This document shows positions 8,521-11,808 of a stretch of 11,997 nucleotides of DNA, one piece after another (the first letter of the stretch is position 1; each line of letters begins with the position of its first letter). The position numbers and the translations under genes were made by a program. The notes below the pieces were generated by a model, which saw only the letters and a program-made list of their open reading frames with translations, had not been told where the DNA came from and searched no databases. Source of the DNA: Veillonella sp. (GTDB lineage: Bacteria > Bacillota_C > Negativicutes > Veillonellales > Veillonellaceae); the NCBI GenBank assembly GCA_018367495.1, contig JAGZGB010000054.1, positions 1 through 11,997 of the forward strand, written 5' to 3'.

Positions 8521-9408
8521 ATGAGTAAGACAGTAGGTATTATTGGCTTAGGACTATTAGGTGGTTCGTTGGCAAAGGCTTTAAAGGCTTATACTGATTA
8601 TGAGGTAGTGGGCTATGCGCGTCGTCAAGAGGTTTGTGATGCGGCTATTCAAGATGGTGTTGTGAATGCTGCTTGGACTGAGGTAGAACCATTGATTGAT
8701 AATTCTGATATTGTCGTATTTTCTTTGCCACCGGATACAAATGCAAGACTATTTACAGAAACGGCACATCTCTTTAGACCAGGACAAGTTGTGACCGATG
8801 TGTCTAGTGCAAAGGAAAACTTTGTACGAGCTGTATATAGTTCTATTCCAAAAGGGACTATTTTTGTATCTATTCATCCTATGGCGGGCTCTGAAAAAGG
8901 TGGCTATGAAGTGTCTCATAAAAACCTATTTAAAGGTATGGGTTGGATTGTACTAGAGGATAAGGCCTCTGATGTATATAGTGAGGAAGTAGCTCAAGAG
9001 CTAGCTGAAATGGGGCGTGCTGTAGGATCACGTATTGAGTTCGTCGATATCTATGCTCACGATGCATATTTAGCCATGGTTAGCCATATGCCACATTTAT
9101 TGGCATCCATTTTAACTCAAGTTTCTGGTGGTGATGAACTAGGCGAGTTGCGTATGAAATTATCCGCAGGGGGCTTTAGAGACTGTACGCGTGTAGCCGG
9201 CGGTTTGCCATCTATGTGGCGCGAAATCATCTACGGAAATAGAGATAATGTAATCGAAGGGCTTTCACAGATCGAATCTGAAATTCAACACGTAAAAGAG
9301 ATACTTTCACAAGAAGACGAAGGTCAAGCTTTAGAATCCTATCTTGAACGAGGGCGAGAAATCCGCGGTAAATTACCATATTTAACAGGACAAATAAAGA
9401 ATAGCTAA
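8521..9408 (+). CDS. tyrA: Prephenate dehydrogenase
   Basis: TyrA oxidatively decarboxylates prephenate to 4-hydroxyphenylpyruvate with NAD(P)+, the committed step to tyrosine, in the cytoplasm. The product has 295 residues. The N-terminal Rossmann fold shows GLGLLGGS (9-16), then the family blocks DVSSAKE (93-99), HPMAGSEKGG (119-128), VSHMPHLLAS (187-196) and GGFRDCTRVAGGLPSMWREI (217-236). The C-terminal ACT regulatory domain of the longer Bacillus-type enzyme (about 370 residues) is absent, so feedback control by tyrosine through that domain is not expected. The start has a modest AGG at 8513-8515. Arogenate as substrate cannot be excluded, since the dehydrogenases share these motifs. Other aromatic-pathway genes are not adjacent in this window. 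A strong hairpin lies just upstream, and no clear terminator is visible downstream. Confidence 0.92.
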   Translation: MSKTVGIIGLGLLGGSLAKALKAYTDYEVVGYARRQEVCDAAIQDGVVNAAWTEVEPLIDNSDIVVFSLPPDTNARLFTETAHLFRPGQVVTDVSSAKENFVRAVYSSIPKGTIFVSIHPMAGSEKGGYEVSHKNLFKGMGWIVLEDKASDVYSEEVAQELAEMGRAVGSRIEFVDIYAHDAYLAMVSHMPHLLASILTQVSGGDELGELRMKLSAGGFRDCTRVAGGLPSMWREIIYGNRDNVIEGLSQIESEIQHVKEILSQEDEGQALESYLERGREIRGKLPYLTGQIKNS

Positions 9409-9580: not shown

Positions 9581-10618
9581 ATGAGTTTGTTAGAAGAAAC
9601 CTGTGGCACTATTATAGGTCGCAGTCATGAGATTGAACAACATATAATTGATAGTTGGAATGTAGGATCACCTATAGAGCAATATGGTCGACTTGTAAAT
9701 GTGGTAGCTCAATATGGGGCAGCTACGAATCAAGACTCTGTTACCATTCCTAAGCCATGTATGATTATCGCATCTGCAGACCATGGTGTGGCAGATATGG
9801 GGGTAAGTGCGTACCCAAAGGAAACAACTATTGGAATGACGCAAAACTATCTCATTCCTAAAGGGGCTGGTGCTAACTCCTTAGCTAATTATTGTGGCGC
9901 TCAAATGGAAGTTATTGACATGGGCGTTGATGCGGATATGAGTTGGGTTCCAGGATTGCGTAGTCATAAGCTTGGAATGGGTACAAAAAACTTTGCAGAA
10001 GAACCGGCTATGACGCGTGAGCAAGCTATAGAAGGTATTGAAACAGGTATCCGTCTTGTAAAAGAGAAAATCGATGAAGGCTTTAATGTCTTTTTAGTAG
10101 GAGAAATGGGAATTTCCAATACTACAGCTAGTGCTCTTATGACGGCTAAATTTGCAGGACTCACTGCGGAGGAGGCGACAGGTCGCGGTACTAATATTTC
10201 TGATGAACGTCTTAAATTAAAGCAACGCATTGTACATGATGTATTAGAAAAATATAAAGATATTCCGAAGGACGATGCTATCGGAATCCTTGCGGCTGTA
10301 GGGGGCTTTGAATTTACCTGTATCGTAGGTGTTATTTTAGGCGCTGCAGCTAATAAGGCACTTGTTATTATTGATGGTTTTAATACATCCGCTTGTGCAT
10401 TGGTGGCCAAAACATTGGTGCCACAGGCGATGGATTATGTGATGGCGTCTCATTTATCTGCTGAAAAAGCGGCTAAATCGTCATTAGAAAATTTAGGGCT
10501 TGAAGCTTATGTTGATTTAGGTTTATGTCTTGGTGAGGCCTCTGGCGGCTCCATTCAAATGGGGATGCTTGACCTTGCTGTTCATATGTATTTGGCTGTT
10601 ACAGGAGGTAAGGCATGA
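9581..10618 (+). CDS. arsA: CobT-family nicotinate-nucleotide:base phosphoribosyltransferase, ArsA-like
   Basis: CobT-family enzymes move the phosphoribosyl group of nicotinate mononucleotide onto a base, making the alpha-ribotide used as the lower ligand of cobamides. Generic databases would call this cobT. From the ATG at 9581 it has 345 residues (Salmonella CobT is about 356). Conserved features are ASADHGVADMGVSAYP (64-79), GEMGISNTTASAL (174-186), the phosphate-binding GRGT (201-204), AAVGGFE (238-244) and the likely catalytic glutamate E319 in LGEASGG, which corresponds to Glu317 of Salmonella CobT. AAGGGAG (9569-9575) is 5 bases before this ATG, which rules out the earlier in-frame GTG near 9518. 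The gene overlaps the next one by four bases. That tandem arrangement, with a second CobT homologue, matches ArsAB of Sporomusa ovata, which activates phenol and p-cresol; ArsA here is unrelated to arsenic pumps. The family is secure and the ArsA identity is inferred. Confidence 0.85.
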   Translation: MSLLEETCGTIIGRSHEIEQHIIDSWNVGSPIEQYGRLVNVVAQYGAATNQDSVTIPKPCMIIASADHGVADMGVSAYPKETTIGMTQNYLIPKGAGANSLANYCGAQMEVIDMGVDADMSWVPGLRSHKLGMGTKNFAEEPAMTREQAIEGIETGIRLVKEKIDEGFNVFLVGEMGISNTTASALMTAKFAGLTAEEATGRGTNISDERLKLKQRIVHDVLEKYKDIPKDDAIGILAAVGGFEFTCIVGVILGAAANKALVIIDGFNTSACALVAKTLVPQAMDYVMASHLSAEKAAKSSLENLGLEAYVDLGLCLGEASGGSIQMGMLDLAVHMYLAVTGGKA

Positions 10619-11718
10619 GAACTTTTACAATCGAACCATTACATGCGCCATCCATGGAAGCATGCCGATTACGTATTGATAATTTAACAAAACCTATTTA
10701 CAGTCTTGCTACGTTAGAGTTAATAGCAGAACGTTTTGCAGGTATTCTGGCAGATCCTAAACCTAATCACTTGCGTCATGGTGTGCTCATTGTGGCATCG
10801 GATCATTTGGTAGATGGGCCTCAAAATAGTCAACATGGTTGTGAAAGTTATGAGGTTATCAAGCGTTTTAGTGTAGGTAGAACGGCTACGCAAGGTGCGG
10901 CATCTAAGTTACATGCAGCTGTGCACGTTGTAAATGTAGGCCTTGAACGAGACACAACGGATTTAACAAATATTGACCAAAAGGTTATTCGTAGGGGTTC
11001 CCACTTTTTCGGTGTAGAACCAGTTATTTCTTATGATGAATTAGAAGAAGCTCTTGAATTAGGTTTTAATTATGCTGATAAACTACATGATGATGGATTA
11101 CAAGTCGTTGCTATTGGTAATATCGGTGAACGGGCATTTCTTGATTCTCTCGTAACGACTGCAACTATAACAGGTTGTGAATTTAGCGATATTCTTGTTC
11201 ATACTGAATGTGGCCCTACTATTGAACAGCGAGCGGCTCATATTCATTCTTTTGTAGATCGTTTTAATATCGCTGTTGATGATTGGTCTGCTTTGAGTGA
11301 AAGCGAGCGCCGTGATGCGGTATTGCATTTACTTCATATTGCAGGAGGTTTAGATATTGCATTCTTAACAGGCTTTATCTTAGGTGCTGCTAGTCATCGT
11401 ATGGCTATTGTTTTTGATAATGCCGTAACAGGTGCTGCTATATTGGCTGCTGTTACCATTGAGCCATTAGTAAAAGACTATGTATTCCCATCGGCTGCCT
11501 ATGAGGAACCAATTCATAAGGAACAATGTCGATTCCTTGGAATAAAACCATGTTTACACTATAATTTACAAATTAATGAAGCATTGGGTTCCACAATGGG
11601 TCTATCTATTATCGATGCATCCATGCATATGTTAAATGATATGAAAACCTTCGTGGAAGCTGAGGTAAAAGCGGCTGAAGATGGTGCCGGTAAAGGTAGA
11701 CAAAAGAATAAAGAGTAA
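10615..11718 (+). CDS. arsB: Divergent CobT-family paralogue, ArsB-like partner subunit
   Basis: This 367-residue protein is a divergent paralogue of its upstream neighbour and probably its heterodimer partner in base activation for cobamide synthesis. Shared landmarks are IVASDHLVDG (59-68, matching ADHGV), AIGNIGERAF (167-176), HIAGGLDIAFLTGFILGAAS (241-260) and INEALGSTMG (320-329), which keeps a glutamate (E322) at the catalytic position. It lacks the GRGT phosphate-binding motif: the matching place reads HTECGPT (196-202). The substrate-side motif GVSAYP is also replaced (HGCESYE). The C-terminus adds a charged, lysine-rich tail. The start overlaps the previous stop (ATGA) with AGGAGG 6 bases upstream, so the two are translated together. 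In Sporomusa ovata ArsA and ArsB are both needed for phenolic cobamide ribotides. Alternatives are a regulatory or substrate-shifted CobT. The family is sure; the ArsB role is inferred. Confidence 0.78.
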   Translation: MRTFTIEPLHAPSMEACRLRIDNLTKPIYSLATLELIAERFAGILADPKPNHLRHGVLIVASDHLVDGPQNSQHGCESYEVIKRFSVGRTATQGAASKLHAAVHVVNVGLERDTTDLTNIDQKVIRRGSHFFGVEPVISYDELEEALELGFNYADKLHDDGLQVVAIGNIGERAFLDSLVTTATITGCEFSDILVHTECGPTIEQRAAHIHSFVDRFNIAVDDWSALSESERRDAVLHLLHIAGGLDIAFLTGFILGAASHRMAIVFDNAVTGAAILAAVTIEPLVKDYVFPSAAYEEPIHKEQCRFLGIKPCLHYNLQINEALGSTMGLSIIDASMHMLNDMKTFVEAEVKAAEDGAGKGRQKNKE

Positions 11719-11725
11719 TCTATAT

Positions 11726-11754
11726 AAACGAGGGGTTATTAAATCCCTCGTTTT
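11726..11754 (+). terminator. Terminator after the cobT-like pair
   Basis: AAACGAGGG (11726-11734) pairs with CCCTCGTTT (11745-11753) around a 10-base loop, followed by T and then ATATAT. Pairing can be extended by TATAT on the left with ATATA on the right across one extra T. It begins 8 bases after the arsB stop. Confidence 0.88.
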
Positions 11755-11808
11755 ATATATTTTATGTTCGATTATGGAAAATTAACTGAGAATTTCATGG
11801 AAAAACCA

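Follow-up and report, generated by a model that had tools for sequence, protein, structure and literature searches.

Phenolic bases are preferentially activated by ArsAB of Veillonella parvula, according to the available part of PMC4657239, and this organism makes p-cresolyl cobamide (PMC6759758 and PMC9600662, accessible portions) and carries a cobT gene as well (PMC8123684, likewise in part). A census that relied on adjacent cobT annotations counted 27 species with arsAB among the genomes that it covered (available text of PMC6461909). ArsAB of Sporomusa ovata (PDB 4hdk, 4hdm, 4hdn, 4hdr and 4hds) is likewise a pair of tandem CobT paralogues. CobT of Salmonella enterica belongs to the same family and is a homodimer of one protein; the accessible sections of PMC9561151 give E317 as its general base and describe a base pocket built from both chains. 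CobT of Methanocaldococcus jannaschii is a distant relative, for which the same sections give Asp 52 as the general base, a different dimer interface and a pocket formed from a single chain without any fusion.

The DNA analysed here (the window) is a stretch of 11,997 nucleotides from a Veillonella species, and it encodes two CobT-family proteins on the + strand. The first gene, arsA, lies at positions 9581–10618 and encodes the putative catalytic subunit, 345 aa long when read from the ATG, while the ORF called mechanically begins at a GTG (9518) and is 366 aa long. The second, arsB, lies at 10615–11718 and encodes a core-degenerate subunit of 367 aa. A sequence-only reading of this DNA had described two overlapping genes joined by an ATGA, and both ORFs are indeed found there, with ATGA at 10615–10618 of the + strand; also by eye, a putative ribosome-binding-site-like GGAGG is seen at 10604–10608 (+ strand), 5′ of the arsB start. 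Both proteins match the PF02277 profile, ArsA with an E-value of 1.8e-97 over profile positions 20–319 of 329 and ArsB with 1.2e-63 over positions 1–329 of 329, so that these matches are not due to chance. A terminator-like hairpin followed by a run of Ts is visible by eye 3′ of arsB, at 11727–11756.

That the pair is of the ArsAB type, as had been proposed, is borne out by structural database matches and by phylogeny. The best PDB match of ArsA is S. ovata ArsA (4hdk_A, E-value 1.8e-95), the next being a CobT at 1.7e-49, and that of ArsB is S. ovata ArsB (4hdk_B, 5.9e-46), followed by one at 3.5e-23. A maximum-likelihood tree was built from 159 rows, with seven reference CobTs alongside the window pair, fragments of the S. 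ovata proteins and sequences from Veillonella and other loci. The two window proteins join their S. ovata counterparts in separate clades, one of ArsA and one of ArsB, each comprising 61 rows and having an SH-aLRT value of 100; the tree is a quick one, with SH-aLRT as its sole support measure, no bootstrap and long branches flagged. Grouping with ordinary CobT duplicates is not seen, and the other Veillonella CobT paralogues are placed elsewhere. Both proteins fall under the cut-off of the CobT model TIGR03160 (319.3 bits), ArsA narrowly with 318.6 and ArsB with 175.4, and neither has the termini and the core complete in one protein, as a canonical CobT does. To judge from these comparisons the window pair is an ArsA and an ArsB, an identity that is already known, and the pair is in itself ordinary. 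The orthologous pair of V. parvula (L005) has the same gene order and differs at the level expected of species, its ArsB being 83% identical to that of the window; a V. infantium protein is 91% identical to the latter. A phage collection gave no match to the pair, and in a plasmid collection the matches to ArsB that were listed (20 of 84 records) were distant CobTs of at most 28.7% identity.

Two of the twelve Veillonella-type genomes (G010 and G011) have the pair as their only PF02277 matches, so that it would seem to be the sole CobT-family enzyme there, unless the assemblies are incomplete. Further divergent CobT paralogues of 340–348 aa (L033–L041 and L045–L048) occur in nine of the twelve and in one MAG-type relative; these are without the usual N-terminal TKPxxSL motif.

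The two subunits differ in which parts of CobT they retain. ArsA keeps GVSAYP (aa 74–79, positions 9800–9817), GRGT (aa 201–204, 10181–10192) and E319 (codon at 10535–10537), the last in the alignment column of the S. enterica general base, all on the + strand and all as the sequence-only reading had them. The second protein lacks conserved GRGT and GVSAYP in the alignment, again in agreement with that reading, and its E322 (11578–11580, + strand) does stand in the same column as E319 and E. coli E318. All 18 Veillonella-type ArsB rows keep the base-equivalent glutamate, compared with just 25% of 20 fused ArsB halves (see below), and E322 is thus weak evidence of catalysis and not diagnostic. 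Over 45 large-domain columns conserved in CobT, window ArsA scores 0.87 and window ArsB 0.42. Among 18 Veillonella-type pairs the catalytic columns are mostly at or near 1.00 in ArsA, in which most CobT-invariant core columns are kept, while ArsB retention is 0.00 at E. coli CobT G71, E175, M176, N180, T181, T182, G201, G203, G265 and H290; other core columns, such as D69, G174 and G177, are retained. More core residues have been lost in Veillonella ArsB than in that of S. ovata, which still has, among others, GEMG and the LGEG motif.

The termini show the opposite distribution. The small domain of CobT is made from its two termini. Every one of the 18 Veillonella-type ArsB rows has both the N-terminal KP..SL motif and the C-terminal M.TF motif, and neither is present in any of the 18 ArsA rows. 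The ArsB N-terminal segment (aa 1–54, positions 10615–10776, + strand) contains DNLTKP at aa 22–27, and the C-terminal tail (aa 329–358, 11599–11688, + strand) contains NDMKTF at aa 341–346; these are the two parts of the lid proposed below. Each exact terminal motif is found in only 14 of 37 rows of single CobTs, and since many of these proteins are also without it, absence of a motif alone is not proof of loss. The boundaries of all ArsA and ArsB segments were set by us from the alignment.

Constraint within the genus follows the same division. In eight Veillonella sequences (the window and seven species, with the last nine ArsB residues excluded) the ArsA core (aa 59–325, positions 9755–10555, + strand) has a dN/dS of 0.024, against 0.154 for the N-terminus and 0.182 for the C-terminus, whereas in ArsB the C-terminal tail is the lowest of three segments at 0.040, the N-terminal segment being at 0.077 and the core at 0.093; all these ratios are rough, because most segments have a dS close to or above 1. 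Variable sites number 30 of 78 in the ArsA termini and 35 of 267 in its core (p 2e-6), compared with 24 of 84 in the ArsB termini and 102 of 274 in its core. Taken alone, the ArsB contrast does not reach significance (p 0.15), and the contrast of termini with core differs between the subunits with a z of 4.5.

We looked for ArsB in 300 sampled genomes belonging to the same class as V. parvula SKV38 (Negativicutes, going by the record of that strain), using as search pattern the DNA form of the tail NDM(K/R)TF. The signature is present in 133 genomes at 135 places, and a backward control pattern is found in 3 of 300. The pattern misses real cases: eight of nine earlier loci without a pattern match are ArsAB loci, the ninth (G035) being a pair of CobTs that fall in neither the ArsA nor the ArsB clade. 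Four places were dropped, one with the signature 54 bases from a contig end (L089), one at a contig end (L131), one without an ORF containing the motif (L183) and one with the gene split over two frames (L184). The remaining 131 usable pairs comprise 70 separate pairs and 61 in which ArsA and ArsB are fused in a single ORF, 16 of the latter having escaped an initial motif test and been recognised from the length of the ORF. On the best ArsA tree the fusion label requires at the fewest eight changes, a count that includes unsupported branches and does not tell gains from losses. No mention of ArsA–ArsB fusions was found in the accessible portions of PMC4657239, PMC8123684 and PMC9600662.

Fusion is accompanied by erosion of the ArsB core. 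In separate pairs the median score over the 45 columns is 0.91 for ArsA and 0.59 for ArsB, and the corresponding medians for fusions are 0.82 and 0.16; at the other extreme, tandem ArsBs in 13 of the 131 pairs score 0.89–1.00 and keep nearly all core residues. The distance from KP to NDM is 291–322 residues in 63 of the 70 separate ArsBs and 205–245 in the other seven, while it is 75–300 in the 46 fused ORFs called by motif (L184 included) and 174–238 in the 16 fusions assigned later. Seven shortened separate ArsB genes (266–308 aa; L125, L126, L135, L136, L196, L197 and L199) adjoin full-length ArsA genes and lie between the full and fused forms.

In five fusions of 469–478 aa (L165–L169) the distance is 75 residues: more than 200 ArsB core residues are gone, and ArsA is followed by an ArsB remnant of about 110 aa. 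The nearest named relatives of these mini-fusions are from Pectinatus, and a protein search found at least eight of 468–479 aa (P0241–P0248), two of them named Pectinatus frisingensis and P. sottacetonis, together with a shorter and more distant ninth (P0254). The open-licence literature yielded no paper on CobT in Pectinatus or on an ArsA–ArsB heterodimer of cobamide synthesis. Among 66 fused proteins other than minis (of 120 listed), whose alignment gives the fair count of invariant columns, 18 of the 20 invariant ArsB-half columns belong to one or other terminal segment, D554 and G593 of P0057 being the exceptions, and the C-terminal motif DMKTF..V..A.DG.G...Q is invariant over divergent fused proteins. 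When the nine minis are aligned with 43 longer fusions, most of the same ArsB terminal residues are still invariant; the columns of that alignment are numbered by its first row, a coreless mini, and it is therefore not counted against conservation of the core. Structure prediction for a mini-fusion is confident (pLDDT 91.7, pTM 0.94). In comparison with M. jannaschii CobT, the last aligned residue of 6pt8_B stands beside the ArsB DMKTF motif in both predicted fusions, and a fused ArsA–ArsB would resemble that enzyme in having its pocket in a single chain (PMC9561151, accessible sections).

Loss of the ArsA termini and loss of the ArsB core tend to go together, and in raw counts the association is strong. 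ArsA keeps its N-terminal motif in 17 of 31 pairs in which ArsB scores at least 0.7 and in 1 of 100 below that value, and its C-terminal motif in 11 of 31 and 0 of 100. Twenty pairs are without the ArsA C motif and have a mostly intact ArsB, and none shows the reverse, an asymmetry that hints at the ArsA termini having been lost before the ArsB core. A test of correlated decay on phylogenetically independent pairs is not significant, and with just two to three such pairs on well-supported branches we regard the correlation as a trend.

ArsAB is known as a phenolic-base phosphoribosyltransferase of cobamide synthesis, in which nicotinate mononucleotide (NaMN) donates its phosphoribosyl group to p-cresol or phenol and the alpha-ribotide so formed goes on to become the lower ligand. 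The window pair would do the same. We propose that ArsA would supply the catalytic core, with NaMN binding, GRGT and the general base E319, and that ArsB, having probably lost its own site, would cover the ArsA site with a lid made of its N- and C-terminal segments and so help to shape the choice of base. The enzyme is likely to be a heterodimer of ArsA and ArsB in which only the ArsA site is live and the ArsB termini cap it; natural fusions lend indirect support to heterodimer formation. The division of labour suggested in the sequence-only reading is thereby supported and made more specific: where S. enterica CobT has everything in one protein, ArsAB would split core and termini between two paralogues. 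The original observation is correct and mostly known, and what is new is which way the two subunits divide, with the core on ArsA and the termini on ArsB, a division supported by constraint, by the fusions and by natural core deletions. A role of the ArsB lid in base choice seems to us the best reading and a fairly probable one. What the sequences themselves show is membership of the family, the loss of core residues in one subunit and of terminal motifs in the other, constraint that matches this division and, in relatives, naturally fused proteins and proteins from which the ArsB core has been deleted. How the lid touches ArsA, that just one site is live here and which base the strain uses are inferred. 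On a wider scale, a symmetric two-site CobT homodimer may have become an asymmetric one-site enzyme, in which ArsA shed its termini and ArsB its core, with many fusions, and with the core deleted in Pectinatus-like bacteria and in P0254, so that about 110 residues would cap the ArsA site and help to set phenolic specificity; on balance we lean towards this history.

It could also be that ArsB merely stabilises a dimer-like ArsA, with no part in base choice, phenol selectivity then being a property of the ArsA core alone. The fused state of 61 of the 131 pairs and the mini-ArsB remnants fit a structural partner equally well, the retained termini could serve solely as an interface, and dimer stabilisation without shaping of the pocket would leave the same traces as a lid. 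We consider this unlikely nevertheless, since both chains form the base pocket of S. enterica CobT (PMC9561151, in the sections accessible) and the invariant DMKTF..V..A.DG.G...Q would appear to exceed what a generic interface needs.

The remaining alternatives concern whether ArsB is itself an enzyme, or needed at all. Retention of E322 throughout the 18 Veillonella-type rows, and the nearly intact cores of the 13 high-scoring tandem ArsBs, would agree with working sites on both subunits, ArsB then acting on another base or the enzyme showing half-of-sites turnover; this is very improbable given the ten columns at which Veillonella-type ArsB retention is 0.00 (even with D69, G174 and G177 kept), the fall of the base-equivalent glutamate to 0.25 in fused halves and the absence of the core from the five mini-fusions. 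Only ArsA is reportedly active according to the 2012 paper on the S. ovata structure. Still less probable is that the genes arose by ordinary duplication of CobT and that their products activate 5,6-dimethylbenzimidazole: both proteins do belong to PF02277 and match TIGR03160, albeit under its cut-off, but they group with the S. ovata proteins in the ArsA and ArsB clades and not with the further CobT paralogues of Veillonella, and V. parvula ArsAB prefers phenolics (available part of PMC4657239). That arsB is a decaying pseudogene behind a self-sufficient arsA is least credible of all; the catalytic motifs are indeed lost, but dN/dS over whole ArsB is 0.094 in the eight Veillonella sequences, which argues that it is no pseudogene, the terminal motifs are kept in every Veillonella-type row, and the frame is open beside arsA in 17 of 17 loci (L001–L017), although these were found by means of ArsB and do not measure how often arsB is lost.

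Natural proteins that retain little of ArsB beyond its two termini offer a direct handle on what ArsB is for. Fused forms would also escape screens for two adjacent cobT genes, and the fused proteins among the named matches listed are annotated as nicotinate-nucleotide--dimethylbenzimidazole phosphoribosyltransferase. With the signature in 133 of 300 genomes and 61 of 131 pairs being single genes, set against the 27 species of the adjacent-cobT census (PMC6461909, available text), the capacity for phenolyl cobamides may be underestimated by such a census.

The genomic surroundings of these genes vary. Directly upstream of arsA in the window is a putative tyrA-like prephenate dehydrogenase gene (8521–9408, + strand; NCBIfam matches under the curated cut-offs), which we treat as a neighbour only. 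Such a gene is present in 16 of the 17 loci L001–L017 (L012 is without it), directly upstream in 11, and in none of the other loci searched, mostly with short flanks of about 1 to 4 kb and with L125–L214 outside the search; tyrA linkage was rejected as a pathway clue and is treated as local synteny. Cobalamin riboswitches are found 5′ of arsA in 8 of 18 tandem loci scanned, and none is found in the window at Rfam gathering scores. In one genome (G031, locus L116) the order is arsA–cobS–arsB, beside genes for cobyric acid synthase, cbiB, cobD and cobC/alpha-ribazole phosphatase.

HydG releases p-cresol from tyrosine. It is above cut-off in 169 of the 300 genomes, 103 of the 133 with the ArsB signature and 66 of the 167 without (genomes were sorted by E-value, and the 18 without a match were identified by elimination; the total agrees with the tally), and it is a possible source of p-cresol for the signature genomes, though only a lead, since the comparison has no phylogenetic control and 30 signature genomes are without HydG. 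ThiH, considered as another source of p-cresol, is above cut-off in 6 of the 12 Veillonella-type genomes. At fused loci the upstream neighbour is tex in five of the eight proteins tested, which suggests nothing specific. The fused arsAB frame overlaps the end of the upstream gene in seven loci (L079, L082, L091, L092, L094, L095 and L097), and in the four of these in which the upstream gene was tested (L079, L092, L094 and L097) it is tex.
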